Assembly: GCA_963921825.1 (NCBI GenBank)
Contig: OY997592.1
Location: forward strand, 61,710,336-61,774,335
Reading direction: 5' to 3'
Length of the DNA stretch: 64,000 nucleotides
Source of the DNA: Erodium maritimum
Taxonomy: Eukaryota > Streptophyta > Magnoliopsida > Geraniales > Geraniaceae
Shown: one piece after another, positions 8,307 to 56,606 of the stretch
Position numbering within the stretch: the stretch's first letter is position 1
How the letters are laid out: each line of letters begins with the position of its first letter
Notes under the pieces: model-generated
Database searches by the model: none
Told to the model about the DNA's origin: nothing
What the model saw: only the letters and a program-made list of their open reading frames with translations
Made by a program: the position numbers and the translations under genes

Positions 8307-8308
<2 letters not shown>
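7950..8308. repeat. degenerate minisatellite of about 25 bp units
   Basis: Many imperfect iterations of a unit close to ggtgataaaacacatgtg, with variants ending in ctagtgtt. Spacing drifts, so the array is old. Confidence 0.6.
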
Positions 8309-8351
<43 letters not shown>

Positions 8352-8609
8352 ATAACAATCAGGTACAAACCTTGTAACTTCGTCAGAACGTAGAACTTTT
8401 AATCTGGGCCCTAGGATCATAGAATTAAAGGCCCAGATTTAATGCATATCTTCTAATATCTTTTTAATTAATGCATATCTTGTAATTGATTTCGTAATCA
8501 ATCACCCCCACCCCCCTGAATTTCGGTGGCCATCCGATCTAGGTAATCAATGGCCCAGATTAGTTCTACGTTCTGACCCGAAATAAGGTTTGTACCCGAT
8601 TGTCCCCAT
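8309..8609. mobile_element. inverted-repeat element in a TA microsatellite, copy 1
   Basis: A TA run (8309-8347) precedes an element whose ends are inverted repeats. The left end reads about GGATAACAATCAGGTACAAA. The reverse of the right end carries ACAATCGGGTACAAACCTT and then the complement of the left cgtagaac block. A second TA run follows at 8608. It is non-coding and about 260 bp. The TA-flanked layout resembles Micron-type plant elements. Confidence 0.6.
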
Positions 8610-8878
8610 ATATATATATATATATATATAGGATAAGATTCATGTACAAACTTGTATCTTTCGTACGAAATAGAAACTATCAATCTGGGTCCTTAAATCG
8701 TGGAATCAAAGGCCCACATTTAAAAAAAACATTAATGACATAATCATTAATACATATCTTTGTAATTAATTTCATAATCAATCACCCCTGAATTTTAGTG
8801 GTTGTCCAATTCCCTAAATCAATGACCTAGATTGGTTTGTATTTCGCACCATAAGATCAGTTTGTACCTGAAAATTCC
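8608..8878. mobile_element. inverted-repeat element in a TA microsatellite, copy 2
   Basis: A diverged second member directly follows copy 1. A TA run (8608-8631) leads to GGATAAGATTCATGTACAAA, and the right end inverts to TTTTCAGGTACAAACTGATC. The inner parts of copies 1 and 2 align, for example aatctgggtcc...ggcccacattta and aatcaatcaccccctgaattt. No coding content. Confidence 0.55.
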
Positions 8879-9199
8879 CTTACATATATTTTAAATCAGC
8901 CCGAAATAAAAAATTTGCGTGCTTCAAAATATATTCATCACTTGTCTTGATAGAAAGTCATTGAGAAAATAAAAATATTGGCACAAGTTTGAACCCAATA
9001 AGAGTTTAAGCGAAGCGAAAATGATTAAATTAATGAGTTGGTAAAAAAAAGTAATATGATAGTTTTACTAAAAAGATCCTACTACCTACCAATAAGTGTT
9101 GTGTTTTTGCGGTCAACAATTCAATTACATCTCATCTATCCATTTATGAAATAAATGACTTAGATGAGTTCTCACGGTTTTTTGGTTAATGGTGGATTT

Positions 9200-10251: not shown

Positions 10252-11490
10252 TTACTTTTCAGGTGACAACACAGGAAATTCTTGATCGAAACTTGAATGT
10301 AGAGAAAGGGAGGGAGTCGGTGACACAACCGACAATGGTTGAGCATCCTCAAACCCGACATTAACCACCAGTTGATCCGGCGCTGATGGAATAGGAGACA
10401 ACGAGCACGAAGAAGCTTTTCCATCTGCCTTTGATACAGGCCCGATAGAAATAACCTCCCCAACCAAAAAAAGCCTTGATGGACTTGTTGTTGGGTCAAA
10501 AAGTGGGCTTCTCGTAATGGGCTCCTTAACTGACCCGAGTTTCACTTGATGTTGGGTTGCTTGGGCCATAAGCAACCCAACATCCAACCCAACATTCGGC
10601 CCAAGTCATTCAAGTGAGTCCGAAGCAAGCAGAGACGACATTCCATCGCAATCTGCAGCGTGATCCAAGGACGCAACAACATCATCCTGATCCGCTCGTA
10701 TCAAATCAATGGCGATATTCCCGGGATTCGAAACCGACGAAATTATCTCGGATATCTCGGAATTTTGAAACGGACCCTCGCCATCGCCGGTCGGCGAGGA
10801 AAAATCTGCAGGAACACTTCGATCTTCTCCACGAACCTCAAGCTCTTTCCCCTTTACAGAGATTTGTTGTGGAGGCCTCAAAAGTTGGCTCTGATTCAAG
10901 GTTTGAAGAGACCTCGAATTCATGCTCTGTTTCAAGGATTCTGAAACAGAGCATGCTCCATGTGGTCCATCATCTCGGCGAGGGCTGAAAGTCCGCCTCC
11001 GACGTCGAGCAACGGCGACACGAAGAGTATTACCATTGATTTTTAAACTGCCCAACCCCTCTATGGCCTGATCCACCTCGTTTTTTGATTCAAAACGAAT
11101 GAATCCAAAAGTATGTCCATCACGATTATGTCGCTTCGGAACGGACACAGAGACGATCGTACCAAAGGAGCTAAAGACGTATCTGACCCATTCCTCTGAT
11201 GACCCAGACGGGATATTGCGAACCAAAGCTTCGTCCAATTGAAGCCTAGCCTTCCTCCTCGATCTTCTCCGGTGAGCAGTCCTTGTCGACGAGACCCGAG
11301 CAGGAGATGAAGCGTTCTCCTCCGGACTACGGACCGAAACCTGGGCAGGGTTGACAGAAACCCCATCAACACCAGCTAGCCCTCCCTTTGTATTCCCGGT
11401 TGTGCTGGTTGGAGGAGCCCTAGTCTTACCTTTGTGAGCCGGAGCAACTCCTCGAGAAACGATGGCACAATATTGGTCATAACTCGACAA
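10252..11490 (-). pseudogene. RRM-containing retroposon ORF1, interrupted by one in-frame TGA
   Basis: A minus-strand frame of 413 codons is open except for a single TGA at 10606-10608. It is 294 codons up to that stop, and the downstream part continues in the same frame to 10252. The N-terminal 80 residues are basic and Ser/Arg-rich. An RNA-recognition motif follows at about residues 86-160, with RNP2 ALVRNI (88-93) and RNP1 HTFGFIRF (126-133). In plant LINEs such ORF1 proteins bind element RNA. With no adjacent reverse transcriptase, it is best read as a relic with one disabling point mutation. A host RRM gene is less likely because no introns are seen and a retroposon tail follows. Confidence 0.6.
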
Positions 11491-12479
11491 CGGAATCGTA
11501 CAAAAAGAAGCAAAGGAGAGAGTGGCGTTGAAACCATGACCGGTGAAGGGTGTCGCTTCTCTGGTTCAGAACATCGATGTGTGCCAGGGAATATGTTCCC
11601 TGACCACTAAGGTCAGAATAAAAGAATAATGGTTCACTGATCCTTGTACCACTAGAACCATTAGAGACGGTATTGGGATGCCATATAGACAATGATAGAA
11701 TACGGGGGATGAGAAGGTGGCACTAGAATTCTTGTTCCGAAAACTGGCCAAGGACTTCAACAGTAATGGTGGGAGGCAAAGCATCGAAAATGGACCCCTC
11801 CCAGGGTCAGTACCTGATGCCCGTTTACTAGTCCCTGAATCTTTGCTCGCTAGTTTTTGACCCTGCAAAAATGAAATCAAACAAACTAAAAATGACCCAC
11901 TCGATTAGCCAGACACATAGTCGAGAGAGGGTCGAGGAGGGTGCGGTGGTGGAGGCCAGGGAGATGGACACGACGGCGGCGGCGGCGGCTTCAAAGGCGA
12001 TTTCGGAGGCGGATTCAAAGGTGGCTTCAGAGATGCCGGCGGCAGATTCGGAAACGTAGAGGATCGATCAGAAGATGGCGGAGAGTATAGAGGCGGATGG
12101 GGCGCAGTCACCGGAGGTAGAGGGATTGTCAAGGGATATTGACGAGGGAGATTGTCGCCCCGATATAAATTCCTTCCCAACCCGAGTTGAGAGGAATTGG
12201 AAGGTTGAGAACGTCATGACGACAAAGTGGAGGAGTCGGAAAGATGCCAGAAGGACAACGATCGGCTAGGCTTGGGTGGCTCACGAGAAGGAGGCATCAA
12301 AACCTTAGTAGAGCTTCTCGACTTCGTGGGACCTCGAGAATAAACAGGTTAATCACGCCTTTTTCTTCCTTTTTATAGATATAGTGGTACTGCTATATTT
12401 ATATACAACTTTTTACATTGATATTTATCTCAACTCTTCCTTTCGAGTATGTAACATGTGTTTAGCTTATTATAAAGAT

Positions 12480-18296: not shown

Positions 18297-21200
18297 TTAC
18301 ATAGAAGTTTTGTTTCTAATAGCCAAAAGATTCTCTGCAGCTGATGAAGATGATACCCAATCCATGCTTGCTTCTGTATTATGGTGTTTCATTCGTGTTC
18401 CACTGTCACTGGCTGTACCTGAGGAAGACCTCATGTCCTTCCTATGATCTCTTATGGCTTTAAATCTCAGATCATCACCATAAGTCCTCGCTTCGGGGAT
18501 TACATCCGGGACCATAGATCTTCCTTCAAGAATGCTCACAACTTCAGACATGCTTGGTCTCAACGAAGGAGATCCGTTTGTGCATAAAATTGCTACTTTA
18601 ACCATTGTTTCTGCTTCTTCCTTGTTGAACTCCGATTCTAGCTTCTCATCCACCAGCTCCAACAAGTTCCCACTTGTTTGCAAGTGACATGCCTGAAACC
18701 AAAGATCACATTTCCTATTAATTTTATACTGAACTCGAATTGCAATATTGCTTAATGCTACTGTCTGCTACAAAGAAAATATCAACAGGATAACAAGCGT
18801 TTTTAACCAAGCGTTGTGAGAGAAATGGAAAACTTTGTGCAAGCATCATATCATTGGCCCTAATCCTGCTTTAACATATGACCCCTCGGTAGACACCATA
18901 CGATAAGTAAAAATGGTCATAGGAGTTTTGAAGCTAATGGAATGGTTCCTATAACCCTCTATGGTCTAAGAAGACCAATGTACACCATCTTGGTAGATGG
19001 ATCGAGAGAGCTACATCCAGAATTTGCTTGTCCAACTGGTCAAGCACTTAAACGTGGTTCTTTCTGGACCAGGTTCAAGTCTTGGTAATGATATCTCACT
19101 TCTTATTTCTCTCCCCGACTTCGGTTGGGCCTCTATTCCAAGGTGGGGGATCAAGAATCTAGTGTTATCTTCTACATAAGAGAGCTCATTTCATGCTTGA
19201 TACATTAATTTTAAAAGGGGTAACCATGGTTCCTAACCTATTTAGAGTTTTGTTTTCGCGATCCTAACCTGGGTTGACCTTTTGTTGCACTTCTCAACTA
19301 TTACCTTTGCATTTTTTGCACGGACTATCGTTTCCCGTTTGAATAAACGTTGCCGTTAGTTTTGGATGGGAAAAGTCCAAAATGCCCTCAGCAAAAAATG
19401 TTAGTCCGTGCAAAAAAATGGAAAGATCATAGTTAAGAAGTGCAAAAAAGGTCAAGCCCAACTTCAGGTTATTGACTTTTGTTGAGGACATTTCTGTCTT
19501 TTCCAATCCAAAACTAACGTCCCTTGTTAATTTTGACGACAAACGATAGTCCGTGCAAAAAATGAAAAGGTGGTAGTTGGGAAATGCAAAAAAGGGTAAA
19601 CTCAGGTTAGGATCGGGAAAACAAAGTTCAAAGTAAGTTAGGAACCATGGTTTCCCCATTTAAAAAAGTTCTTTAACAATCAAAATTTGTTTGGTGTTAC
19701 CTTACTTCTACATAAGCAAGGTCTTGAACGCAAAACGCTTTGATACACCCGATTCAGTCGATCAAAAACAAAAGAGCTAGATTATAATTTTAAAATAAAA
19801 TAATTACCCAATCTAGAAGACAAGCAAACTTGTTGTCCCGCCCATAACTCGCGTTATGTCTCCCGCTAACTATTTCCAAAGTCAAAATCCCGTAGCTGTA
19901 GACATCAGCCTTGTGAGTCAAGTAACCCCACAGTGCATATTCTGGAGCCATGTATCCTCTGCATAACAAATGACCAACCATCTTGATTTTAAATCCAAGA
20001 AAACTACTTCAACCATAACATAACTATAAGACAGAAATCAAACTGCATTATCATGACTTACATTGTCCCAGCAATTCGGGTGCTAATATGAGTTTTCCCC
20101 CCTTCGTCAAGCTTAGCCAGGCCAAAGTCAGATATTTTAGGGTTTAAGTCTTCATCAAGCAATATATTGGTCCCTTTAATGTCTCTGTGAACAATTTTGA
20201 ATCTTGATTCCTCATGGAGAAAAGCTAAACCCCTAGCTATCCCAACACAGATCTTGTGCCTTGTTGGCCAATCCAGTTTCAGTTTATCTTTTCCTGGTCC
20301 TGTAGTTTGTTGTGAAAAATATTAGAAAGGAATAATTGTCAAAACATGCACTTATGTTTCGTCCACAAACGAAATAGTGCACAATGTTTTGTCCACGTCG
20401 TCTGGCTACCCTTATGAATCGTCCACGCACTTCTGTTAGAAAAGTGTAACAGCAGAACCTGAATTGACAATTTTGCCCTTTTGGTTTGAAATTCAAAAAT
20501 AAGAATTTCGTCCAAAAAAATGAGTGGCTGAGGATTGTTAGGGCAATTTCGTCCAAAAAAAATTCAGACACAAGCACATGATAGCACGTGATGCTACAGA
20601 TTCGAATATTCTGTTAATTTTACTGACAGAAGTGCGTGGACGATTCATAAGGGTAGCCAGACGACGTGGACGAAACATTGTGCACTATTTCGTTTGTGGA
20701 CGAAACATAAGTGCATGTTTTGACAATTATCCCTATTAGAAATATGCATACATGACACTTTAGCTTATTACTACATAATACAGTTACTCTATATTAAGCT
20801 TACCAAGCAAAGCACGGCTTAAGCTATTATTTTCCAAGTATTCGTAAATCAGCAATAGTTGATCGCCTTCTATACAACACCCATAAAGCTTCACAAGATT
20901 AGGGTGGCTCAAACAAGAAATAGTGGCTATTTCGTTCAAGAACTCGCGATTTCCTTGACTTGATTTAGATGAGAGCTGCTTCACTGCAATTATGGTACCA
21001 TCTGATAATACACCCTGTGTTTTAGTCATGTAGAAAGATAATCATAATTAGATTCAAATGGATCATATTTCAGGAACCAAAATTAGCTTTAATACCTTAT
21101 AAACAGGTCCAAATCCACCTTCCCCTATCTTATTTACAGGATCGAAGTTTTGTGTGGCTACTTTGATTCGCTCTAAGGTAAAAGATCCTGTTTGGAAGTC

Positions 21201-30366: not shown

Positions 30367-30780
30367 TTTTTTTTCAATAAGCCAAGAAATTTATAAAAAC
30401 CTCCTTTTCAGAGCATGAAAAGGGGTGAAAACATCAAGTTTCTAGCTACAGAAACTGAACCAAATACATACCTGAGCGCTGGTATAAAACACAACCTCAT
30501 ACAAACCCAACAAGGGGAGTAATTATAGTGTAAAGCCAACAAAGGCTGAGAGATAGGTCTAAAAACCCTGATTTTCCTACCATGAAGCACCCATAACAAA
30601 GGATTTAAAATACAAATTTTATAACCATGAAGCTCTAAACCATCTCACCAATCAAAACACCACAACCTCTTACCAGCACTTGATGTATAAAACACCTCAT
30701 CACATCAAGCATCGACACGCTGGCGGCCCACACCGCAAACGGCAGAGATAAGTCGGTGACAAATAGCCATCGATACTAAA

Positions 30781-31677
30781 TGTTAGAATATGAATTAATG
30801 ACGAATAGTTGAAGAGTTTACCATTAATTAAGTTTTTGGGAGGTGAAGAGGTTACCATTAATGAGGTGGTTAGATGTTAGAGTAACTCTTTATAAATAGA
30901 GAGCTACTCTTGCTCTTTGTATCAACTTATCATCAATATATTCTCTATATTTCCTAGTTTTACATGGTATCAGAGCTTCGGTAAGCTTTCTACAAAAATT
31001 TATGGCTTTGCCCACTCGTTAGTTTATGAATGTAACGAGTGGGCAAGGCATTCACAAGGTGTTACATTTCCTGAACTGCTTGTTGCTCAGCCAGACGTGA
31101 ACTGTACCACCGTCATGAACAGTGCCTACTGTTGTGAATAGTACATACCACCGCTGTCAGTCATGTGCCAACATCACCCCAGTGCATTCTCCGACTAGTT
31201 ATTATTCTCCCATCTGTTTTTCAACTATACCACCTTTGGTTTTGAGATTTTTGTTAGGTTATGCTACCCAGGTGTGTAGCGGTTATTGTTAGAGACGAGC
31301 TACCCAAGTGTGTAGCAGTTGGTATGTCCCGTTGTGCAGTCAACTAGTCTTTGTTCTAGGATTCCCAAGTGTGCATCGATAAAACTCAACTCCAATGGTT
31401 TGGCCAAGCCTGATGTTAGGCTTATGTCGGATTGATGTTTGTTATTGTCGCGTGCAAGATTTGTTGTGTTATCGGCTTTCACGTGAGGGGAAGTGTTAGA
31501 ATATGAATTAATGACGAATAGTTGAAGAGTCTACCATTAATTAAGTGTTTGGGAGGTGAAGAGGCTACCATCAATGAGTTGGTTAGATGTTAGTGTAACT
31601 CTCTATAAATAGAGAGCTACTCTTGCTCTTTGTATCAACTTATCATCAATATATTCTCTACATTTTCAAGTTTTACA
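30781..31677 (+). mobile_element. complete TRIM-type LTR retrotransposon, 897 bp
   Basis: Two direct LTRs of 184 bp (30781-30964 and 31494-31677) start TGTTAG and end TTTTACA. A primer-binding site TGGTATCAGAGC follows the left LTR (30965-30976) and a purine tract gtgaggggaag (31483-31493) precedes the right one. A perfect 5-bp target duplication ctaaa flanks the element (30776-30780, 31678-31682). The 529-bp interior has no gag or pol, so it depends on another element for movement. LTR copies differ at about a dozen sites. Confidence 0.95.
31008..31046 (+). other. 14-bp perfect stem-loop in the TRIM leader
   Basis: ttgcccactcgtta (31008-31021) and taacgagtgggcaa (31033-31046) are exact inverted copies around an 11-nt loop. 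They lie 32 bp after the primer-binding site, in the 5' leader, where packaging or dimer signals are expected in retroelements. The function is inferred from position only. Confidence 0.75.
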
Positions 31678-35777: not shown

Positions 35778-37690
35778 TCTTAGAGCATGTACAATATTGA
35801 GGTTAAGTTTTAAAGTTTAAGGTTTATAATGTTGACGGGACATAATAGTAAGTCTGTACCTCATAGATAATGTGTCCCACAATGGTGATGTTTACTGTGA
35901 GGTTTATGGTTCTGAGTAGATGTTGACTGGATGTTGAATTAATATTTTGCTGAATTTATTAAATTCCGATTTAAAACATTAAACACTAAAGAAAATTGAA
36001 ATTAATTTGACAAGATAATTCTTACATAGAAAAAGTTTTCACTCGTCGTCTGATTCGTAATTCGCTCCGGAGCAATTCCATATGTGCTCAACAAGGTTAT
36101 CTTGGAGTTGTCGGTGTGTGTTATCATTTGTCACCTCGTTTCGAACGCCAGGTGTTGTTCGTAGGTCCAGGTCCCTCTCGGGTGCTATCGTTTGGGTGAA
36201 GTCCAATCAGGTATTTTCGGAGGGGATTCATAATACAAATCTTCATCTCCTTGTTCGTACCGGTCAGATTCATCCTCTACAATCATGTTGTGTAGAATGA
36301 TACATATGTGCATGATATCAGCCAACGCACTCCTGCTCCAAAGACGAGCGGGCCGGGAAATTATGTGCCAATGTGCTTAAAGGACTCTAAAAGCTCGTTC
36401 AACATCTTTCCAGCAATCCTTTTAGACTTTAGCAAACAATTTGTGTTTGCGTGATCCGAGATGACGAATGGATTTCACGAACCGATTCTATCGTGGGTAA
36501 ATGTCGTCAACCAAATAATAAGGTCGGTTGTAGCGATGCCCGTTGATCTCGAAGTCCACGGAAAAGTCACAACCAGCAAGGGCATCTTTGAATAAGTGGT
36601 CGGTATTGAGAACGTTGATGTCATTGTTCGAGCCAGCCATTCCGAAATACGAATACCAAATCCACAAATCACGTGACGCTACATCTTCCAGCATTATGGT
36701 TGGACGATCGTGGTGATCTTCCCATCCAAAGCGACCTTGCATCGTGGTTGGGAAATTTTCTAATCCTAATGCGGGCAGTCAAGACTCCCAATCATGCCGA
36801 TGAACCCTTGCCTGAATCACGATTCTAGTAATCGGGTCAAGTTCTCCACATTTGGTTTACGCTCGTACTCAGCCATAAAAACCTCAACAACGACCTTGCA
36901 AAACCGGCGTACACATTCAAGTATGGTACTTACCCCAAGTCGGAGTGATTCATCCAACGAATTGACCGAGCAATCATGCGCTAGCATTCGTATCACGGCG
37001 ATGCATTGATAATCCCATGCGTCCGAAAGTGTCCGGCTTTTGGAAGAAGTAATTGTCATGCTCCGCTACCTTTTGCCTCACCCAAATGAAAAGTGGTCGG
37101 CTCATACCAAATCGACGCTACACATCTCTGTCCCATAGTTGGGGTTCTTGACAAATTAATCCTGCTCTAAGCGCTCGTGCCTTCGACACGACCTTGGTCA
37201 ATCTCTCTTCAGCAAGGTTTTCCACTTTTGACCCGTCGCCTCATTGTGTCGATCCTTGGAATTGCTCTCTATATCACTCTCTCAGCCCTTCATCAGATTA
37301 ATTCCTCAATTACACGAACGTTGGCTTTGTACTTATCCATAGCTCAAAGAAACCGACTTTGTGGGAACTGGATTTTTAGAGAGAAAAGTGAGGAATGAGT
37401 TGAAAATGTTGGTGGTTTGATGAATGAGATAGAGGTATTTATAGATGGGAAAAATATTATTTTTGATTTACTTTCTGATTTTATATAATTAAAAAAATTA
37501 TCGTTTCAGACCGTTGACCATTGGTCTGATTTTTTTTCCACCTGAGCGTTGTTTGTCGCTTTCCCATTTGTCTCTTCCTCATTAGTTGGTCGTCGACTTA
37601 CAAGTCACGAATCAAGGTTAATATTTATAAACCATAACGAACGATTTACGATTCACGACTTACTAAACCACGCATAATACATCAAGATTA
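35778..37690 (-). mobile_element. PIF/Harbinger transposon relic
   Basis: The left limit is set by gagcatgtacaatattgagg, a Harbinger-like end. The right limit (about 37690) is set where ggtttataa and gtaagtc blocks recur inverted. The precise TIR and 3-bp duplication could not be confirmed. A minus-strand transposase pseudogene fills 36240-37400. Confidence 0.5.
36240..37400 (-). pseudogene. PIF/Harbinger transposase, frameshifted
   Basis: Ordered minus-strand blocks match plant PIF transposases of the DDE type. RRFGMSRPLF near 37100 is followed by IAVIRMLAH and DESLRLGVST...CVRRFCKVV at 36850-37010. MIGSLDCPH (first catalytic Asp) lies at about 36770. Then come the RDLWIWYSYFGMAGSNNDINVL region (landmark at 36610-36680), NGHRYNRPYYLVDDIYPR at 36490-36545, and HANTNCLLKSKRIAGK near 36400-36460. 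At least one frameshift around 36750-36815 and several stops break it. The long plus-strand frames in this stretch are its antisense shadow. Confidence 0.85.
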
Positions 37691-38087: not shown

Positions 38088-38160
38088 CTGAGGTCAACTG
38101 AGAGTATGGGAAACTGTAAAAACTAATAAACTACATCTTAATTTTTCTTGTTTGACTAAA

Positions 38161-39110
38161 ATGTGCAATTTTATTAGATAGATTTCAACCGACAAACAAG
38201 TGTATCAGGGAAACCCCTGACCACAATAGAAGAGATATTACATGGTATCGAGTCCATAATGTCTGTCTACGCATAACTCTGTGACAAAAGAACCGACACA
38301 TGTGGTTTTTTGGGGTGCCATAAAGGAGAACAAAAAAAGAAATAACAATGAATCCGATGTCTACTGCTCAAGGTCTGGCCCAGTTGTTGTATGTTCCGTA
38401 AAATACGACCGAACCTGTTGAGATCGGCTTCCAAGGGAGGTAGAGCTATCCCTTTCATTCCTCCACGAATCAATAATCGCTGCTCAAGGTGTAGCCTTCA
38501 TGATCAATTCGATGTATTAAACCATACTTGCGATCATTGATTTCAAAAACCCATTTGATTAGCCAATTCCATAATCGATAGAGGGATCGAGGAGGGGTGG
38601 AGGTGCATGCTAGGGGAGAGGCGGTGGACGGGGAGACGACGGCGGCGGCTTCAGAGGATGCGGCGGTGGAGGCCAGGGAGGATGACGCGCCAGTGGCGGC
38701 ACAGATGGAGTGTGATGCACCACGTTGGGCTGTAGAGGTCAAGACTGGTGGTGGAGGCATCAGTCATGTCGGCGGATTGATCAGGCTCGATGCTCCAACC
38801 CAGACCGGCGGTGGAGGCAGCAGTCATGTCAACGGATTGATTAGGATCGATGCTCCGAGCCAGGGCGGCCGCAGGACTCCAAGGCGGTGAGGTTGATCGA
38901 TACCGAGGTGAGCCAGACGAAACCTATGATCGGAAAACGCGTCGTTGGTGGCGGGAGGGAGCCAACGTCGTGGTGGCTAGCGGTTCGAAAGGAACATTAG
39001 GAGAAAAAACCTTTGCAGAATCCAAAGAAGAGGTGCAAGGGAGAAGATGTAGAGAAACTAGAAGCATAACCATGACCATGACTTTGACTACATCCAACGG
39101 CTATGTCTCA
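38161..39110 (-). mobile_element. retroposon-like repeat, copy A (paralogue at 51230-51930)
   Basis: Long stretches align with 51230-51930. These include the tactctgtgacaaaagaacc-type region at 38270-38300, gatcggcttccaaggg near 38425, ctttcattcctccac, and the gcgtcgttggtggcg...gggagccaacgtcg region near 38940-38975. Copy A has an extra GC-rich part (38590-38870) with Ala/Gly-rich frames. The minus strand probably encodes the N-terminus of a LINE ORF1 (38470-38760, then GGMKGIALPPLEA near 38430). Polarity and class are tentative. Confidence 0.5.
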
Positions 39111-39426: not shown

Positions 39427-40748
39427 TCATGATCCTTTTGGGAAAAAACTGCACTTGGTGATCTCTAGCAGTGGCTTGTCTGTGAACCTCATGAAGTTAT
39501 AGACCCATGAACCTGAAATTGCTGCAAGTGTAGGAGATGCCAAATATATCCATATCCCCTTATAGTGACTATACACAAATGCAGGCCCCAAACTTCTTGC
39601 TGGGTTCATCGATGCCCCTGAAATCGGCCTGGCAAATACATACCCACTAAATTAGTATACATTACATCTCAATTCACACTAATCAAGTGCTGCATTATGA
39701 TTCAGCTTAGATGATTTAGTACCCTGCAAACATAACATTAAGTGTTACTGTGGCACCAATCGCAATCCCGGCAAGTTCACCAGTCTGCATAATCATGGAT
39801 AAGATACTAAGATTCCATGTAAATGTAAGAGTGACACTAAAGGATGTTTAGTGAAGAAGCTGAACTTACAGCTCTGCTATCTGTGGCAACACCAGATATG
39901 ATCAGCATGAGATAGAATGTGATTATAAACTCAATTGCAAAACACTGCATGTCTGATCCAGATGGACTTGTCCCATGAAATTGATCCTCATTCCCATGAA
40001 ATAATAGCTTCAAGGTCCAGCTTGCTAGGGTCGACCCCAGGACTTGAGCTAATACATAAGGTGGAACCTGTGAAAGGACAAGAATAGTACAGTTTTGAGT
40101 CTTTCTCATAAGCATGCAACTTAAGCTTTGGTGACTTTTAGTTGAGTTGGTTTTCTAATATAGTCTCAGAGCCCCTATATCTCACGGACAGGGGTTCGAA
40201 CCTCACTCTCTACAAAATTTTCTATTTTTTTGCAATTTATGCTTAAATTTTTAGTTGAGTTGGTCTTCTAATAGTTTATTTACCTGCTTACATGGAAATC
40301 TCTTGCAGGTGGCAAAGACGATGGTGACCGCGGGATTGAAGTGGGCGCCAGAGATGTGACCGAGGGAGTAGACCATGACCATCACAGCCAGACCCCATAC
40401 TGCTGATACTCCAGGTTGAGTCACTACCTTGTCATGGTCCAAATTCACCACCACTGAAGCGCAGCCTGCGAACATCAGAAAGTAAGTACCGAGTACTTCT
40501 GCAACTAACTATACACATTCAACAAGTATCTGTAAGTTCATGATCTAATCAATGGAATATGAGAATTTGGTAGATGGGATTGTTTGTGATAATTGAATTG
40601 CATATTTATGACTAAGTAATAGTTAAGGTACCTTCTGAGCAAAACATATAGACAAGATATTTCGGTTGGGTTTGGGGGCAGAGTCATCACCATCATTTAC
40701 ATTCAGCACAGCCTCATTGTTGTTGTTTTCATCACCTTCTGTCTCCAT
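39427..40748 (-). CDS. NIP subgroup I aquaporin, five exons, 267 aa (gene 1 of a tandem pair)
   Basis: Membrane channel of the nodulin-26-like family; members pass small neutral solutes such as glycerol, water and metalloid acids. Exons (minus): 40748-40632, 40508-40284, 40067-39870, 39784-39723, 39628-39427. All ends are GT..AG and phases close. Six membrane helices flank two NPA boxes, HFNPAVT (Asn97-Ala99) and SMNPARS (Asn209-Ala211). Trp77 in helix 2, small residues before the second NPA and Arg212 fit the W-V/I-A-R selectivity filter of NIP subgroup I. The C-terminus ends ITKCSFFPKGS and lacks the ITKSxSFLK phosphorylation block kept in the neighbour at 49111. Intron 2 carries a TRIM-like fragment. 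It lies 8.4 kb downstream of its duplicate, same strand. The specific substrate cannot be read from sequence. Confidence 0.95.
40136..40276 (+). mobile_element. degenerate TRIM/SMART-like element in NIP gene 1 intron 2
   Basis: Two partial terminal repeats with ttagttgagttggt (40139-40152 and 40251-40264) both lead into tctaata. The first is followed by tagtctcagagcc (40161-40173), a decayed primer-binding site, then ggttcgaac at 40193. This matches the plan of 37870-38087 in opposite orientation. Confidence 0.6.
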
Positions 40749-40841
40749 GACTGTTGTAATCACACTAGGAATTAATTACTTAATTACTACTCTCAGAACT
40801 CATGATGAGGGTAATTAAGTTCCCTAATTTCCCGGGTTATG

Positions 40842-41289: not shown

Positions 41290-41760
41290 ATTTCATGGTT
41301 TTCTCAAACCGGTTTCAATTTAGATAAATTTCGTCTATCAAATAATATGGTTGGTTAGAGTGATTATCATTTGTAGCACGTACTTCTTTGAACATGTGAT
41401 TATCATTGAGCTTGTTGATATCGTTGTTGGGACCAATGGTCCTGAAATAAGCATGTCAAATCCACAAATTATGGGACGCAACATTTTCAAGCATCATATA
41501 GTTGGTCGGTTACCATGATCTCATCATCCGTATATTCCATGGCATACAATCAAGACTCTCAATTATATTTGGGAATCGTCGTCTATGTCCCTCGTCCAAC
41601 AATCGGGTTAGGTTCTCCGCATTTGATGTTCTCTCATACTCGTTCATAAAAATTAGAAAATTGTCTTGAAAAACTGTCGCACGCATTCAAGTATAGTGTT
41701 AACCCTCATTTACAACATTTTGTCCAAGGCATCAGCCGAGCAGTGCACTTCTGATGTGTA
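41290..41760 (-). pseudogene. second PIF/Harbinger transposase fragment
   Basis: Aligns by eye with 36480-36960: the landmarks atgatattcg-type tattgagcttgttgatatcgttgtt, aaatccacaaat and catactcgttcataaaaa match the coding blocks NNDINVL, DLWIW and FMAEYER. It is shorter and more decayed, and no transposon ends were found. Confidence 0.65.
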
Positions 41761-41919
41761 AGTAGATTAAGTCGGACGAAATCATCGTTCTTCTGGACAA
41801 ATAAGTCGTTGTGCACTGCAACCGCTTTCATAACCATGAATAGATAAATAAGCATTATTTTAGAGATATAATGATATTCAAACTCATATCTGTAAGATAC
41901 CATCATCAAATTGTAGTAG

Positions 41920-41978
41920 AAAACCAATTCAAACTAAAAGATCAACTTGATAGTTGAAGGCCCGTTATAACTATACAT
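41920..41978 (-). repeat. solo terminal repeat of the TRIM/SMART-like family
   Basis: ccaattcaaactaaaaga, cttgatagttgaagg and ataactatac match one 70-bp terminal repeat of 37870-38087 with few changes. No second repeat adjoins. Confidence 0.55.
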
Positions 41979-42306
41979 ACAAGTTGCAAGTGAACCGACA
42001 TATTAAAATCAAGGGTTAATTGTCAAAACCTACCCTAAAGTAATGTACACGAACGAGAAATACCTTGTCATTTCTCCATGCTTTTATTTTTTAGTTTTTT
42101 ATATAAAATTTATTTTTATTTATTATAAAAATTAATTATTTGATTTTATTTATTATTAAATAGGATAAAATTGTTATTCAATTTACCCTTAACTAGTTCA
42201 TTTATATGGTCAAATACATAACAAAAACAGAATATTCCGTTAATTATTTTAATAGAAGAAAATAGACAATATTTTTGGTATCTCAAAAGTATGGACAAAA
42301 GATAAA

Positions 42307-43497
42307 GGGTTATTTACGATAAGGTACCCTTATGTTTCGTCCACGAACGATAAGGTACCCTAATGAATTTTGTGTCCGATAAGGTACCCTAATGATTCGT
42401 CCACGAACGATTTGGTTTAAAATTGGCATATTCCGTTAAAAACTAACGGAATATTCCTCTAACTTAGACATTTTCAGTTAAGTGGGGTGTGAAATGACGA
42501 TTTTACCCTTTCATATTTTAAGCTTATAAATTTGATAGACAAAACTACCATTATACCCTTAATTATATAATAAATAAATAAATAAATTTAAATTTTTTTA
42601 AAAATTTAAAAATTAAAGTATTTAAAATAATATTACAAATATTAAAAAATATTAAAAATATTAAAAAAAAATACAGAAATTAAAAAAATCATTTTTATTT
42701 TTTAAAAAAATTAATTTTATTAAAAAAAATCGCAGAACAGAAATCGTCTTCTCCGGCAAGCTCCGGCCACCCCTCCTCCGGCGTCTCGTCCCCGGCCACC
42801 CCCACCTCCGCCGCCGACTCCTCCCTCTTCCACCTCCCATCGTCTGAAAACTCGTCGCAGAGCTGAAGCTGAACCAAATCGCGAGCTTCAGCTCTGCGAC
42901 GAGGTTTCAGACGATGGGAGGTGGAAGAGGGAGGAGTCGGCGGCGGAGGTGGGGGTGGCCGGAGCTTGCCGGAGAAGACGTAGTTATCCGTTTTTTTTAA
43001 TAAAATTAATTTTTTTTAAATAATTTTATTTTTATATATAAAACTGTTTTTAATAAAAAATTATTTATATATAAAAAACTAATTATTAAAAAATAAAACT
43101 AATTAAATATAAAATCTGATTTTAAAATATAAAAATATGATTTTTAAAAAATAAAAACTGATTTTTGAAAAAAAACAAATTCAGTTTTTAAAAAATATAA
43201 CTTTAAAAAATATATATAATTTATTTATTTTATTTTGAAAATTAAAATTAATTAGAAAATATAAATTAAGGAAAAATAATAACTGAGGGTATAATGGTCA
43301 TTTCACTCTTAAGTCAAAAGTCAACTAAAATGTCAAAGGGCAAAATAGTCATTCTATATAATTCTGTTAGTTTTTTAACAGCATTAAACCAAATCGTTCA
43401 TGGACGAATCATTAGGGTACCTTATCGGACACAAAATTCATTAGGGTACCTTATCGTTCGTGGACGAAACATTAGGGTACCTTATCGTAAATAACCC
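42307..43497. mobile_element. inner Mutator-like foldback element, 1191 bp
   Basis: The whole element is one inverted repeat with a 13-nt loop (42871-42883). Ends read GGGTTATTTACGATAAGG. A perfect 9-bp target duplication aaagataaa lies at 42298-42306 and 43498-43506. Each arm has three subterminal copies of cgataaggtaccct about 30 bp apart (left arm 42317, 42348, 42377), separated by tcgtccacgaacga. The core (42733-42986) is GC-rich and coding-like, in contrast to AT-rich arms. The left arm has an extra 24-bp piece. No transposase. Confidence 0.93.
42733..42986. other. GC-rich hairpin core of the inner Mutator-like element
   Basis: Two arms of about 115-138 bp are near-perfect complements, around loop 42871-42883. 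The minus-strand frame 42877-42695 starts with Met and has ordinary codon composition until it meets the AT-rich arm, as expected for a captured exon fragment. I do not recognise the source gene. Confidence 0.6.
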
Positions 43498-43569
43498 AAA
43501 GATAAATGTATTTTTTTCATTCGTGAACAGTACTTTAAGATATGTTTTGGAAATTAACCCTAAGATCAA

Positions 43570-44150
43570 ACTCGCCACAATGACAGAGCTATTTTTTTTT
43601 TAATAATAGAGGGCATGAATAAGTATTTTAATAATTTAATATAGAAATAATATTAGATATGTAATATCTTATAATAAATTAATAATTATTACATAATGTT
43701 AAACATTTTAATTGTAACCAAATATCTCTCATTATGTACGAATATACAATTGTTTATTTACTGATCTCTTATTTCATTTTTCAACTAAGTCGTAATTACA
43801 TTCATATCAAAAAATATTCCTCTATTCTTATAGTAGCATTGAAATTTTAACCTGCTTGAAAATAATACTCAAACTCGAATTTGGCTCGACTCAACTCATT
43901 TCGTTTAGTATTTTTCTATAAATATTTGATAAAAAATAATAAAAAAATTATTTTGATTTTTTAAAATAAATTATACTTATTTATTAAATGAGTCTAATCG
44001 TGAGCTCAAATTAGACTCGCGTTTAATTATAATTAATTTGAATATCTAACGAAAAAAATTCAAACTAAATTATTAAGCTTAATCCGGTTATTTTTTATAA
44101 TGTGTTAAAACCCTAGAGACCTTGTGGAGATTAAATTGAATTATCACTAT
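43570..44150. other. AT-rich spacer, nothing recognised
   Basis: Very AT-rich, no frames or repeats that I can support. Confidence 0.4.
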
Positions 44151-45670
44151 ATTAGAGAAAGAAAAAAATCTCTCTCTAACTAAACTCTCTCTCCCTTCTC
44201 TCTTCGGGTCTCAACCTTAGCCTTGCTCGTCGGAGCCGTCAGCGTCAGATCTGGACTCCTCTGGAGCCAGTGATGATTTCGGTGGCTTCCTTTCTTCTCC
44301 CTCTTGCTTTCCTTCTTCTCTTTGCCCCCGATTTCGACCTTTTTACCCTGTTTTCTCTCTTCCTCTCCGCTTCCCTCGCCTGACCTTGCCCCTTCAGATC
44401 TGGTCCATTGGACGACAGATCGACCCTTCCAGACTCACGTCTGGCATGGATCTTTGCTCTTCTGGGAAGATCGATGTCTTATACTCGAGTTGGAGGTCTT
44501 GGGGTTTGGCAGGGGCAGGGTTTGCTCGGGTGTCTCCGGCCGATTTGGGGTTTTCTTGCCCATGGGAAGCTTTTCTTCTTCCTCGCGGGTCAATGGCTAC
44601 AAGGTAGTCCCTTTTTAGGTCGTTGACACTTCCCCGACGGTAACCTTTGCTCGTCGCGCGGTCTTCTTCTTCCCATAGGCGTCTCGGTTCAGAGAGGGTG
44701 TGGGACATTTTTTCAACCTCGTTGATGGTCGCTAATTTGACTGAGATCTGTTTCCATGCCTCTGATGAAGGCGTGTTGTTCCTCCTCCAGCCCTACCTTT
44801 CCTTTCTCCGGTTCTCGTCTCCACAGGTTCCGCAGCTCTAGCGGTCCTGGATCTCAGCTCGAGGGTTTTAGCTCCTCCCCCGTAGATGACGGCTTGTTTG
44901 GGTCGGTTGTGACCCGGGTTGGAGCAGAGCGTCGAGGTGGGTCTTCATCTTAGGTGCTTTATTTTCCCCTTCTCATTCCTGTTTCATCCTTTCCATTGAT
45001 TCCCTAGTATTTGTGATTGCTTCCTTGGTCCTTGATTCTTTTGGGCAGAGGGCATCTTCGTTTTCATGGTCTTGGCCAGCGAAGATGTTTCTGGGGACAA
45101 CTTGGGTCACATTACTGGGCTTTACATCGCTGGATTTGGTTGTTTGTGGTGTTGGCCACCAACCAGTTGAATCCTTCTCTTAAGGGGAAGCAATAGCTTG
45201 GAATTGATGAGTCAGGTTAGGGTTGGGGTTGTGGTGTTAGTTTTGGTGGCACTTGTTAGTCTCGGGACTAGACATTTATGCTTACTGTCGGTGGTCTCTT
45301 TTCATCTCTGCTCTTCATAGTTGCTAAATCTGTGTTTTAGACACTGTTTTAGGCTTTGGTACTTCAATTTGTTTATCTGAGTTTTAGACTTGTTTTTAGT
45401 TATGTTATGCCCTTGTTGGCTTCTGTCCCTGGTTGGACTTGGTAGTTGTTGTCCCTTGTTTGGACATTGTTTTAGTTTCTCTTGTGCTTATTATTAGCCT
45501 ATTAGGTTTATCTGGGTTCTTAAACCTGTACATGTTTGTATTTTACCCAATGTTTGGGTTCTGTTTCTTGTTTGAGTTGTCTTCATGGCATGCTCTTGGT
45601 TATAATATCCTTGAGGGTTCGCCCTTGACCCTGTTTTTTTTTTTGAAAACTTGATTTTTATATAAAAAAA
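44150..45670 (+). mobile_element. retroposon-like segment with poly(A), class uncertain
   Basis: A CT-rich leader (44160-44215) and a GC-richer body with unrecognised frames (44300-44950) are followed by a T/G-rich 3' region. The segment ends in tgatttttatataaaaaaa at 45651-45669. The layout resembles the 5' and 3' ends of the LINE-related copies at 30367-32871 and 59285-61440, here in plus orientation. No protein motif is seen. Confidence 0.35.
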
Positions 45671-49110: not shown

Positions 49111-50981
49111 TTAATTACGGTTTTGACTTCTGATGCTCTTAAGAAAAGAGCCACTCTTGGTGATCTCGCGCAGCGGCTTGTCCGTGAACCGGATGAAATT
49201 GTAGACCCAAGCTCCACAAACCGCCCCGAGAACCGGGGCCAGAAGGTAAATCCATATTCCCCGGTACTCATTCGACACAATAGCCGGTCCCAAGCTCCTA
49301 GCCGGATTCATTGATGCCCCCGAAATCGGTCTAACAAAAACACGACCGTGAGTTCCTCCAAAAACATTTCAATCCTAGATTCCAAACGGATAAATTTAAG
49401 TGATAACGGCATTTCTGTGCTGTGGACAAAGGTGAAAGTGGTAAGTTCATACTGTAGTGACTTTTATGCTCACGTCCTGTCAGAAAACGACATTTAATTT
49501 CTAAAAAAAATGACAAAATTTGTTAAAGGTGGTGCTGACATTTACAAAAAAATGTCACGTATTTTTTAAAAATAACTAAAAGTCATTGGTAAGACTTGAA
49601 AAAAAAATCACTGGTAGAACTAACATACATAGATAGCTACAACACATATGTACATACGAAAAAAAATGTCATTTTACCATACAAAAAAGGGGTTTACTAT
49701 AATTTAATGCATGCATGAGTAGAGACGTTATAATAAAGTTTTTGAATTCTAATAAGTCGGCACAATAACTATAAAAATTGAGCTATATTTGACCGGTTGA
49801 TATGCTTCCAAAAGGCATAACTATACTGACCCAAAACGATAAATATATCATATTGATGAAAAGAGATTAAAGCTTTGGTGATAATTTAATCACTAATCAT
49901 TCCGTTTAATTAGCAAGGAATTGTGGTTGAAGTAATAAAAGAATGGAATAAATACCCGGTAAACATGACATTGAGTAATATGGTAGCCCCCACGGCAAGA
50001 CCAGCAAGTTCTCCGATCTGTGTATAAACAAATTAAATCAGTGCACGTATCAGCAAAAATCAAATCCAAGATTGTTTACGGATTAAGTCAACGTCATGTG
50101 CAATATTTTATTAAAATCATTTGAAACGTACCGACCTGCCAAATCAACATGATGTATAACCTTTTAAGCAACATGTTATTATTATAAGCCAATGAATTTG
50201 CATGCATCCAAATTTATATTCACATCCAAAACTATTATAACATAATTTAAAAAAATGAGAATTGTTTGAGTCTTACAGCTCGGTTATCGGTGGCGACGCC
50301 GGATATGACGAACATGAGATAAAACGTGATGATGAACTCGACGACGAAAGATTGCATGTCGGAGCCGGAGGGGAGTGTGCCGGCGAAGTGGTCATGGGTC
50401 CCGGTGAACATTAACCTTAGTGTTCCACTTGCTAGTGTTGACCCCAGGAGTTGAGCTAATATGTAGGCCGGTACCTATAAGTCATGAAAATTGAAACATG
50501 TTAATTATAATTAGGGGTTTTAATTAATGAGTTAGAAGTTGTGGGTGAAGTAGGTGACCTGTTTGAGAGGGAACCTCTTGCAAGTGGCGAAGGCAATGGT
50601 GACGGCGGGGTTGAAGTGGGCGCCGGAGATGTGGCCGACGGAGTAAACCAGGACCATGACGGCGAGCCCCCAGACGATGGCGATTCCGGGCAGCGTCACC
50701 ACTTTGTCCTTGTCGTTGTTCACCACCACGGCCCCGCACCCGGCGAATATCAAGAAGTATGTCCCCAAAAGCTCCGCTACTATCTGCATTTACATACCTA
50801 AAGTAAATAGGGTGTGAAGAAAAAGAGACTCAAACCCAATTCCCCAAAACAAGAGGGTAACCTTTTGCAAGAAAGGGACAGAGACACAGCAGCCGGGATC
50901 TTGATGATGAGTCTCCTCGCCGTCTTTGGCGATATTCAGAACGACACCAATACTATTGCTTCCTGCTGCTGTATCGGCCAT
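49111..50981 (-). CDS. NIP subgroup I aquaporin, five exons, 274 aa (gene 2 of a tandem pair)
   Basis: Nodulin-26-like channel for small neutral solutes. Exons (minus): 50981-50862, 50783-50559, 50474-50277, 50017-49956, 49330-49111. Exons 2, 3 and 4 have exactly the lengths of gene 1 (225, 198, 62 bp), and intron positions are identical, so the two are duplicates. NPA boxes are HFNPAVT (Asn98-Ala100) and SMNPARS (Asn210-Ala212). Trp78 and Arg213 again give the subgroup I filter. The C-terminus keeps ITKSGSFLKS, corresponding to the block in which nodulin 26 is phosphorylated by a calcium-dependent kinase (family knowledge). The first Met is at 50981; an upstream in-frame GTG is not used. The N-terminal 37 residues differ fully from gene 1. 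Confidence 0.96.
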
Positions 50982-51229
50982 CACAGATAAATAGATAGAT
51001 CGATAGATAAATACGTAGATTAGGGAGAGTCTTTCTTAATCGATCTATCGCTAGCTCTGTGTTTTGGTAGCAAAAAGAGAGGAGAGCAGCTCCAATTTAT
51101 GGGGATGATCTGTAGTGGATTTGGAGGTTTGAGGGAACAAAAGGGAGAATTGACTTGTAGTCCTCCTGTATTCTTTCTTTTTCTATAAAACCAAACAAAA
51201 TTATATGTTTTTACTTTTATTTTACTAAA

Positions 51230-51930
51230 AGGTACCATTTCATCAGACAGATTTCAATCGACAAACGAGTGCATCAAGGAAACCTCTAACCTCAGTAGAA
51301 AAGATATTACATGGTATCGAGCCCTTAAGGTATGTTTACACATAACTCTGTGACAAAAGAACCGGCACATACGGTTTGTAGGGATGCCATAAAGGCGAAC
51401 AAAAAAGAAATAACAATAAATCTGATGTCTGTTGCTCAAGGTATTGCCCAACTGCTGCATATTCTGTAAAATATGACTGAACCTGCTGACATCGGCTTCC
51501 AAGGGGCAGAGCTATCCCTTTCATTCCTCCACAAAATCAATAAACGTTGCTCAATGTGTAGCCTTCATGCTCAATCGACTGTATTAAACCGTACATGCGA
51601 TCATTGATTTCAACAAGATCGATGCTCCTCGCTAGGACAGTCGCATGACTCCAAGGCGGTGAGAATGATCGATAACGAGATGAGCCAAACGAAAACCAAG
51701 ATCGGGAGACACGTCGTTGGTGGCGAGAGGGAGCCAACGTCGCGGTGGCTAGCGATTCGAAAGGAACCCTAGGAATAAAAAACTTTCGCAGAACCCAAAA
51801 GAGAGACGTAAGGAAGAAGATGTAGAAAAACTAGAAGCATAGCTGTAACATATGTCATAGTAATAACCATAGTCATGGTCATGACTTTGTCTATGTACGA
51901 CGACTCTTTCTTAGAAGAAAAAAACTAATA
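51230..51930 (-). mobile_element. retroposon-like repeat, copy A' (paralogue of 38161-39110)
   Basis: Starts about 250 bp upstream of the NIP gene 2 start codon, so it borders its promoter. It matches copy A over most of its length but lacks the GC-rich internal part of A (38590-38840). It keeps acgtcgttggtggcgagagg and gaagatgtagaaaaactagaag near its end. Confidence 0.55.
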
Positions 51931-54235: not shown

Positions 54236-56606
54236 TTTTTTTTTATCAACGAGGTTTTTTATAAATCCACCCGATCCAAAGGATGAATACGGGGGAAACT
54301 GCAAAGCAGCCGGATTACAAGCTCAAAGAATAGCTAATGATAGACCAAGCCAGGTCATACAAATGAAAGCAAAAGAATTAGAATGGGACTAGTACTACTG
54401 CAAAAGAAAGATGCAGACAGAAAATTGGAATTGACAGAGGACCTTGAAACCAAGGGGAGGCATTCTTGATCGTGCAGGCATGCAAATTACCATCTCTTGC
54501 CATAAGCAATTGGAAAGAGGACATCTGAAGATTAGGAACCAATCTGCTGAGCCCGTGGTTAAAGCACAGGAAATCCAAGAGATCCAAAATTCCCAGAGAA
54601 CCAAACTTCCAAGAGGATGGAGAGATTCAATGCTATTTCTTGGAGGGGATTAGAGCATCGAAAGAGTTTTCACAAAGCAATTCACCATCTTCCTCATCAG
54701 AATGTCAGTGATCAATAACCTCATTTCTTGAGTTCAGATAATCTTTGAGGAGATTTTCTTTACCCTTCGTTTTGAAGCCCATGCCTTTGCATATTTTCAG
54801 AGCTTGAGAAAAGTCTTTGAGCCCATAAGTTTGCTTAGCAATGGATGAGTCCAGTGCTGAGGATTCGGATAATTGGGTTGACTCATGTCGCTTGCTTTTC
54901 TTCTTTTTATTTCTTGATGATTTCAAAACTGCAGAGATTGTTTCTTCAGAATCCAAAGAGTTAGTGTCGGGTTCAGTACCAGGATTAAATGCAGCAATTC
55001 CCAGGGTGTTTAGCTCTCTAGGATCATGACCTCTAACCTCGTTTGCAGCCAGAATTAAAATGTCTGATTTATTGATCTTCTTTCTAGGCAGACCATCATT
55101 AATTGTGGGGGTAAAAGAGGATTCAGCCTCTTCGGAATCCCCAATCCTTGAATCTGACTTTTCATTGGCAACGCTCCCTGAGACTTGTCTCCCGAAAATT
55201 GAATTGGTTGCCGGAGAAACGGGCGGTGAGGGAAGAGGGGGGATCAAATTACCATCGCATTCAGAGACCGAAACCAAAAAGTCCTCATCCTCAATGGAAA
55301 AGACAATTTCATCCAAGAAGGGTTTACCAGACCTGGAGTGGATTAGCACTAAGGCCTTCTGAAATTCAGACATTGTGAGGGAATCGGGATGCACGAGCAA
55401 AGGAGTTCCAAAATTACCAGCAATGGTCTTAAAATTGTCAGAAGTCCAGCCTTGGATTGGGACACCACGGATGCAAATCCATCTGTAAAATCCACCTTTG
55501 GAAATGAGTGATTCTTTTCCATGAATCAGGGTGATCCATGAGGATAGCCAAGACCAGTCCTCCTCGATCATTTGGTGCTCAAAATCCTGATCAGAGCAAT
55601 TTACCATAATTACTCTATTGCCCAAATCTCTTATAGCAATATCAAAGACTCCCGAAGCCCCCAATTCAGATTGGATGTTCGCAACATTCCTTAAGTTATT
55701 GTTGACCCCTAACCAGGCCTTTCTCGCGAGAATTCCGAGGGCAGGATCTTTCTTACTTGAGACAACAATGTTCCCAACTCCTTGAGCTCTCTTAGCCGAA
55801 AGAAAAAAACGCAGGTCCTCTCTTTGAACACCAGGGTTACCCATCTTCTTCACCAACTTCGCTCCCCCTCTCGGGAATTTTTCTTTTGCTTGAGAAGCGA
55901 ACAAAGATGAGCCATTCAGATTGGAAGTTCTGATTTCTTCAATTGCCCTTTCAATTACTACGCCCACCTGGAAAGTTATGAAGCAAAAACCCTTCCCCTC
56001 TCTATTTGCAAATTTGGGAATTTGAATGTCAGCAATTGCCCCAAATTGCTTGAGAAAAAAAGACAGTTCTTCAAAAGAGGACCCCAGAGGGACGTTTCTT
56101 ACATAGACTTTCTGAGGATGGGTGAAGCGTTTCTCTGAGTGCTTGGGGCCAGATTCAGCGTCGGCACATCTGAACTCCCCTTCTTCTCTGTCAGATTCCA
56201 GGCTTCTCTGACGAGCGATTTGATTGGCCGGCCTCCAGGTTTTTGTCACTCCAGGGGAAGAGTTTTGCGTCGCCGGAGCACCACCACACTCTTCCTCAGT
56301 GTAGTTCCTTTTTGCAGCAGCCAGGACGCTCCTGTGCTGCGCTTGAATTCGCTCTGTCCTTGCGGGATCTGGGGGAGATGGGTGTCTGTTGCTGGGCGCG
56401 TGAGGCGTGTTCAAAGAGGCCATGCCCGTTAAACGAACACGATCTGAGTTTGCTGGTGAAATTGTTGGGTGATGAATCCTTCAGCCTAAGGTCCCAAATT
56501 ATTCGCCTGTATTGACATGTATTATAGATGCTCTAAATATCGATCATAAAGCAAGTTTGGTAAGTTTATATGTATCTATGAGTGAGATAGTAACTGTTGT
56601 TGTATC
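54236..56606 (-). mobile_element. non-LTR retroposon with intact ORF1, poly(A) tail and target duplication
   Basis: On the minus strand the element has a 5' leader (56606-56424), one long ORF (56423-54705), a 3' untranslated region of about 460 bp and an A9 tail at 54236-54244. The 10-bp direct repeat gattaaacac directly abuts the tail (54226-54235) and recurs at 56607-56616, fitting a retroposition target duplication. No reverse-transcriptase ORF is present. Confidence 0.75.
54705..56423 (-). CDS. retroposon ORF1-like RNA-binding protein, RRM plus DUF4283-like region, 572 aa
   Basis: An uninterrupted 572-codon frame. The N-terminal 100 residues are polar and disordered-looking. An RRM covers about 103-180, with RNP2 VYVRNV (106-111) and RNP1 KGFCFITF (144-151). 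A second region, about 280-385, has GGFYRWICIRGVPIQGW and SDNFKTIAGNFG, typical of DUF4283-type segments in plant LINE ORF1. The C-terminal third is acidic, then Lys-rich (RNKKKKSKR near 505). I expect nucleic-acid binding. Being intact with no ORF2 partner is unusual: it is either a young non-autonomous copy or a retrocopy with selective constraint. No CCHC knuckle is seen. A host gene origin is possible, since the lack of introns and the poly(A) fit a retrocopy of any mRNA. Confidence 0.7.
   Translation of the reverse strand: MASLNTPHAPSNRHPSPPDPARTERIQAQHRSVLAAAKRNYTEEECGGAPATQNSSPGVTKTWRPANQIARQRSLESDREEGEFRCADAESGPKHSEKRFTHPQKVYVRNVPLGSSFEELSFFLKQFGAIADIQIPKFANREGKGFCFITFQVGVVIERAIEEIRTSNLNGSSLFASQAKEKFPRGGAKLVKKMGNPGVQREDLRFFLSAKRAQGVGNIVVSSKKDPALGILARKAWLGVNNNLRNVANIQSELGASGVFDIAIRDLGNRVIMVNCSDQDFEHQMIEEDWSWLSSWITLIHGKESLISKGGFYRWICIRGVPIQGWTSDNFKTIAGNFGTPLLVHPDSLTMSEFQKALVLIHSRSGKPFLDEIVFSIEDEDFLVSVSECDGNLIPPLPSPPVSPATNSIFGRQVSGSVANEKSDSRIGDSEEAESSFTPTINDGLPRKKINKSDILILAANEVRGHDPRELNTLGIAAFNPGTEPDTNSLDSEETISAVLKSSRNKKKKSKRHESTQLSESSALDSSIAKQTYGLKDFSQALKICKGMGFKTKGKENLLKDYLNSRNEVIDH

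Follow-up and report, generated by a model that had tools for sequence, protein, structure and literature searches.

The stretch of DNA analyzed here, a 64,000-nucleotide window of Erodium maritimum contig OY997592.1 (positions 61,710,336 to 61,774,335; all coordinates below are counted within the window), contains an inverted-repeat element with a GC-rich center at 42307-43497. This element is a non-autonomous Mutator-like element (MULE), a known kind of plant transposon, and it is nested in an older MULE-like element. An initial annotation had placed a 1.19-kb hairpin at the same coordinates; these were borne out to the base, at 1191 bp, by terminal inverted repeats (TIRs) at 42307-42420 and 43384-43497. 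The element is genuine and its borders are exact, and its parts and closest relatives in the window are the following.

42298-42306, no strand: left target-site duplication (TSD), AAAGATAAA, 9/9 identical to the right copy
42307-43497: target element, 1191 bp, borders fixed by the TIRs and the TSD
42307-42420, plus strand: left TIR, 114 bp, beginning with GGGTTATTTACG, 112/114 identical to the right TIR
42421-42566, plus strand: left subterminal region, diverged from the right one but homologous to it by alignment and shuffle scores
42567-42697, plus strand: left AT-rich spacer, 131 nt, 4% GC, complementarity to the right spacer not beyond chance
42700-42729, plus strand: left inner AT-rich flank of the core, within the inner palindrome, 29/30 identical to the reverse complement of 42991-43020
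42745-42870, plus strand: left core arm, 126 nt, with a 29-nt segment missing from the right arm; 96/97 aligned bases identical to the right arm
42871-42883, no strand: 13-nt loop, center of the palindrome
42884-42980, minus strand: right core arm, 97 nt, 96/97 identical to the left arm
42991-43020, minus strand: right inner AT-rich flank of the core, 29/30 identical to the left flank
43021-43259, minus strand: right AT-rich spacer, 239 nt, 7% GC, longer than the left one and self-folding
43260-43383, minus strand: right subterminal region, homologous to the left one
43384-43497, minus strand: right TIR, 114 bp, 112/114 identical to the left TIR
43498-43506, no strand: right TSD, AAAGATAAA, 9/9 identical to the left copy
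42013-43560, no strand: older MULE-like element hosting the target; its ends begin with GGGTTAATT and its termini are alignable with the target's
20329-20733, no strand: another MULE-type relative of the target, 405 bp long, flanked by a perfect 9-bp TSD, TATTAGAAA, and arms identical at 118/124 positions

The borders are marked on both sides by a perfect 9-bp TSD. Among 190,538 pairs of 9-mers drawn at random from 41300-44500 only 16 were identical, a local chance of about 8e-5, and because such identity is so rare locally, the match of AAAGATAAA at borders that were preset by the inverted repeats is unlikely to have arisen by chance. Each TIR is 114 bp long and begins with GGG, and the left one holds three copies of a GATAAGGTACCCT(A/T)ATG motif, at 42317, 42348 and 42377. 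MULEs are characterized by TSDs of 9-11 bp and by TIRs of typically 100-500 bp (PMC3310237, used in excerpt, as are the other articles cited here), and with its 9/9 TSD and its 114-bp TIRs matching at 112/114 positions the element fits a non-autonomous member of this group. Neither of the two long open frames across the core gave a Pfam match above cut-off, these being among the 16 of 90 listed frames in the window that were scanned, and in this respect its interior is the transposase-free one of a Pack-MULE. MULEs move by means of a MURA-type transposase binding to the TIR. Lacking a transposase of its own, the element would probably depend on one supplied from elsewhere in the genome.

Termini of the same family were found nowhere else in the window among the matches listed, and merely related ones occur at 20329-20733 and 42013-43560. 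The latter is the host element, whose own sequence amounts to 348 bp (42013-42306 and 43507-43560). Its termini are identical at 39/48 positions, with a score of 51 where none of 300 shuffles exceeded 27, and its flanks TAAAATCAA and TAAGATCAA agree at 8/9 positions. The termini of the element at 20329-20733 align with those of the target through a common TTTCGTCCAC(G/A)AACGA motif. Both the 9-bp TSD and the nesting are additions to what had been described before. A further MULE-like candidate is a 441-bp inverted-repeat element at 19217-19657, with flanks ATTTTAAAA and ATTTAAAAA that match at 8/9 positions and are of low complexity.

Extent of the palindrome

The initial annotation had the whole element fold into arms of 564 and 614 nt around a loop of 13 nt. 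The palindrome and its 13-nt loop are present and far beyond chance, as evidenced by an arm-to-arm local score of 399 against a maximum of 38 in 300 dinucleotide shuffles, and a transcript of the whole element has a predicted minimum free energy (MFE) of -574 kcal/mol against a mean of -218 (standard deviation 7.6) in 30 shuffles. The match is nevertheless confined to blocks, namely the termini, the diverged subterminal region, the inner AT-rich 30 nt and the GC core. Note that the borders of these blocks were drawn after a first alignment had been inspected. In the subterminal region 94/128 aligned bases are identical with 43 gap columns when taken from the whole-arm alignment, and 83/103 with 64 gap columns when the region is aligned alone; the global score of the latter was reached by 1/300 shuffles, and the local score is 42, with 300 shuffles attaining 31 at most. 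The inner AT-rich flanks score 55, above all of 300 shuffles (at most 49).

The spacers at 42567-42697 and 43021-43259 are different. Their mutual local score of 39 was reached by 282/300 shuffles and their global score of 2 by 221/300, and scores that shuffles equal so commonly provide no evidence that the spacers match. As they match no better than shuffled sequence, we rejected a match of the whole 564- and 614-nt arms, and the near-complete hairpin holds only in part. The predicted fold, which had been proposed as a check, is strong, but pairing is concentrated in the termini and the core: 112/114 bases of the left terminus and 98/138 of the left core arm pair across the axis, in contrast to only 12/131 in the left spacer, where 75 bases pair locally. 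Uninterrupted stems of at least 15 bp are predicted for the terminus (24, 72 and 16 bp), the subterminal region (15 bp), the inner AT-rich flank (26 bp) and the core (24, 51 and 20 bp). In a transcript, the termini and the core would thus give four unbroken duplexes of 24-72 bp. Of the long double-stranded RNA that had been envisaged, what is retained is a terminal stem of 114 bp plus a stem in the core that is interrupted by a single 29-nt bulge, but not a continuous duplex of about 560 bp.

Some results run contrary to such a mosaic. The subterminal region and the spacers jointly score 53, which was reached by just 4/300 shuffles, and the score of the spacers together with the inner AT-rich flank was reached by 12/300, although both of these joint stretches contain a block that does match. 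Moreover, the two joined spacers fold at -48.3, which 0/100 shuffles reached (mean -36.7). On its own, the right spacer folds at -33.5, its shuffles averaging -22.5 (0/200 reach it), and the left one at -10.5 against -7.8 (25/200), and as the right spacer folds on itself, the excess of the joined spacers is at least partly local.

The core at 42733-42986 (254 bp) had been described as sharply different in composition from the arms, and this holds, with 64% GC against 4-40% in the remaining blocks. It folds at -225 kcal/mol against a mean of -99 (standard deviation 5.1) in 200 shuffles. The left core arm contains 11-bp direct repeats, CCGGCCACCCC, at 42763 and 42792, and as these are spaced 29 nt apart, the 29-nt indel between the core arms could be explained by slippage in either direction.

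Age and origin of the GC-rich core

The mosaic of arm identities bears on how the palindrome arose. Termini and core together show 3/211 mismatches, whereas the subterminal region shows 34/128 (Fisher p 5e-13, with the subterminal counts from the whole-arm alignment). For comparison, the inverted repeat of the element at 19217-19657 matches at 148/182 columns in a single continuous alignment. Arms with a single origin, followed by drift alone, would have diverged alike. The termini may have stayed alike through selection for transposition or through conversion, but for the core no such selection is known. Near-identity further extends into the AT-rich sequence that borders the core, by about 30 nt to the left and to the right. 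This suggests that inversion or homogenization acted on a unit exceeding the GC core, and that this unit formed once the core already lay inside the element. In yeast, template switching homogenizes the arms of imperfect inverted repeats (PMC8604942).

We consider it reasonably probable that all parts of the following reading hold together: a non-autonomous MULE within an older MULE-like element carries a GC-rich fragment that is probably of host origin, in a palindrome that is younger than the divergence of the arms. As to the origin of the core, we favor capture from the host, followed by conversion to a palindrome. Rice MULEs are described as capturing GC-rich sequence preferentially (PMC4858842). 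The observed borders, TSD and nesting indicate that the element inserted into its older MULE-like host at a site some 1.6 kb upstream of an aquaporin-like gene, creating the 9-bp duplication, with transposase probably supplied from elsewhere in the genome. Its interior would hold a GC-rich fragment, probably of host origin, and judging from the identity mosaic this fragment, together with AT-rich sequence reaching some 30 bp to either side, may have been turned into a near-perfect palindrome later than the remaining arms diverged. Inverted duplication, or template switching between the arms during repair or replication, would be possible routes.

Several points weigh against this reading. Neither a donor nor another copy of the core was found within the 64-kb window, where a blastn search with the core (E 0.01) returned only itself and its own inverted copy among the matches listed. 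The core is one of 25 merged GC-rich stretches in the window whose 100-bp segments reach 60% GC or more. CpG occurs at 0.93 times its expected frequency in the core, compared with 0.76 times in the window and 1.73 and 1.58 times in the TIRs; CpG is thus not depleted in the core but higher still in the TIRs, and provides no mark of recent capture. The divergence of the subterminal region depends on the alignment, with 34/128 or 20/103 positions mismatched, and the Fisher test was run on 34/128 only. Finally, the core may be native to its subfamily, and the comparison that speaks to this took in just two relatives, both with different termini.

This last point leads to the strongest alternative, in which the GC-rich palindrome is native sequence of a MULE subfamily, present in all of its copies, rather than a captured gene fragment. 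We regard it as possible, if clearly the less probable account. It is in line with a palindrome that reaches beyond the core into flanking AT-rich sequence of the element, left and right, as an integral part would, and with the outcome of the protein searches: for the minus-strand frame across the core Pfam gave no match and for the plus-strand frame three, all below cut-off, and 0/2 peptides from the core arms were matched. The two related elements in the window, on the other hand, have no GC-rich interior, GC content per 100 bp peaking at 46% in the element at 20329-20733 and at 28% in the left piece of the outer one, yet their termini differ and they possibly belong to other subfamilies. 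An open frame does run across the palindrome on each strand, of 106 and 99 codons from stop to stop. Open frames are common in GC-rich sequence.

Some further matches to the core were taken as chance. Five sequences in the PDB resembled one core peptide at E 0.07-0.53, all of them artificial alpha-repeat proteins, and the other core peptide had no match in PDB sequences up to E 1. An exact 25-nt stretch of the core gave 0 matches in prokaryote genome contigs and an exact 25-nt stretch of the TIR 0 in viral contigs, both collections being uninformative on a plant donor. An assembly artefact, finally, a fold-back in sequencing or assembly of the kind known to produce palindromes, is scarcely credible here, as the core arms differ by one transversion and the 29-nt indel, the spacers are unequal, and a clean 9-bp TSD stands at the extreme ends of the element.

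With capture from the host still the favored origin of the core, the likeness to Pack-MULEs drawn by the initial annotation stands in part. The affinity to MULEs is supported by the TSD, the long TIRs and a second related element with its own TSD, and the captured look of the core is compatible with its composition and with the preference of MULEs for sequence rich in GC (PMC4858842). If the core does have a host donor, the element would allow a direct test of the way in which captured fragments turn into inverted repeats, which has been proposed as a route to hairpin loci that produce small RNAs. The uneven identity of the arms also suggests that palindromes inside MULEs may form or be repaired locally, after the element already existed.

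Possible small RNAs and silencing

Dicer-like enzymes could act on stems as long as those of the termini and the core, which if transcribed would be Dicer substrates. Production of small RNAs from the predicted hairpin is plausible. Long MULE TIRs have been associated with small interfering RNAs (siRNAs; PMC6446971), small RNAs of 24 nt have been mapped to both the TIRs and the interiors of genic MULEs in rice (PMC4858842), and of annotated Mutator elements in maize 62.82% hold predicted hairpins by one method (PMC10760457). By analogy with this published MULE work, self-directed methylation would be the default expectation, and the likeliest consequence of transcription would be methylation of the element itself, directed by 24-nt siRNAs, and not regulation of a donor gene.

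That the element is instead a functional hairpin-RNA or proto-MIRNA locus, with small RNAs that silence the donor gene of its core in the way of Mu killer or of microRNA genes derived from miniature inverted-repeat transposable elements (MITEs), we consider unlikely. The idea has a precedent in Mu killer, a partial inverted duplication with a proposed hairpin RNA of about 4 kb (PMC3440606), and it agrees with the fold of the core (-225 against a mean of -99 kcal/mol) and with the unbroken stems predicted for the terminus (24 and 72 bp) and for the core (24 and 51 bp). The putative donor gene was not found in the window, however, and Rfam gave no match above gathering score. In 41500-44200 seven Rfam matches were obtained up to E 1, the best at E 5.6e-6 (a viral 3' untranslated region) and 1.8e-5 (mir-791). 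As all seven fall below gathering we rejected them as real families; 5/7 are named microRNA precursors, which we read as generic hairpin scores.

More improbable still is the combination in which a MULE captured a host gene fragment that became a perfect palindrome through template switching within the element, and is now a mobile source of hairpin RNA, with siRNAs directed against the donor gene. If true, it would represent a natural, transposable trigger of RNA interference caught at the palindrome-forming step.

Genomic setting and known systems

For the surroundings of the element, 16 of the 90 listed frames in the window were scanned against Pfam. The gene content, including matches to Pectinesterase, Malectin and Plant_tran, is plant-like. 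The nearest gene among the scanned frames is an aquaporin-like region at 39719-40775 on the minus strand (Pfam MIP, E 1.8e-11 for 39837-40154), whose start codon may lie near 40.75 kb; the target lies about 1.6 kb upstream of it, and between the two is a transposase-like piece judged by eye. A second aquaporin-like region at 50301-51035, minus strand, was judged by eye from the frames, and both regions are presumably of NIP type by motif. A repeat pair within them, 40282-40510 and 50557-50785, is 73% identical. Transposase pieces on the minus strand were seen at 36488-36778 (Pfam Plant_tran, 2.6e-27) and, by eye from the frames, at 41318-41686; we take both to be of the PIF/Harbinger type.

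Other repeats are scattered over the window. A dispersed repeat, 38148-39068 and 51217-51841, is present in two copies that are 84-87% identical in pieces and overlaps the GC-rich stretch 38551-38970. At 8307-8723, TA microsatellites stand beside a short repeat in direct (77%) and inverted (78%) copies, enclosed by a longer inverted repeat at 7785-7953 and 8900-9068 (74%). A direct repeat of 187 nt at 30778-30964 and 31491-31677 is 94% identical, its copies 713 nt apart. Two long open frames on the minus strand, 10606-11565 and 54705-56480, encode an RNA recognition motif (Pfam RRM_1, 2e-12 and 5.5e-8) and presumably resemble the first open reading frame (ORF1) of plant long interspersed nuclear elements.

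Among known systems, the Tm1 Mutator/Foldback elements of root-knot nematodes (PMC3169594) share with the target a 9-bp TSD and composite inverted repeats with internal motif repeats, and they include MITE-like members with inverted repeats between the TIRs as well as nested elements. Unlike the target, Tm1 belongs to an animal host and carries asymmetric 7-bp end motifs outside the inverted repeat, the two having been compared by description. Mu killer of maize is likewise an inverted duplication linked to Mutator-type termini, from which a hairpin RNA is possible in principle, but the core of the target has no Pfam transposase match above cut-off, and no silencing activity is known for it. 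Pack-MULEs, which are defined by an insert that matches a host gene elsewhere in the genome, resemble the target in their long TIRs, their 9-bp TSD and the GC-rich sequence enclosed; the insert of the target is however a palindrome rather than a single gene fragment, with a donor gene that is putative. The plant non-autonomous TIR-MULEs, or Mutator MITEs, share the 9-bp TSD, a 114-bp TIR starting with GGG, motif repeats within the TIR, an AT-rich subterminal region and the lack of a transposase match, and the target departs from them in its central 254-bp GC-rich palindromic core. On present evidence it is a plant transposon of an ordinary kind whose anatomy is instructive, and its mild interest lies in the uneven arms.
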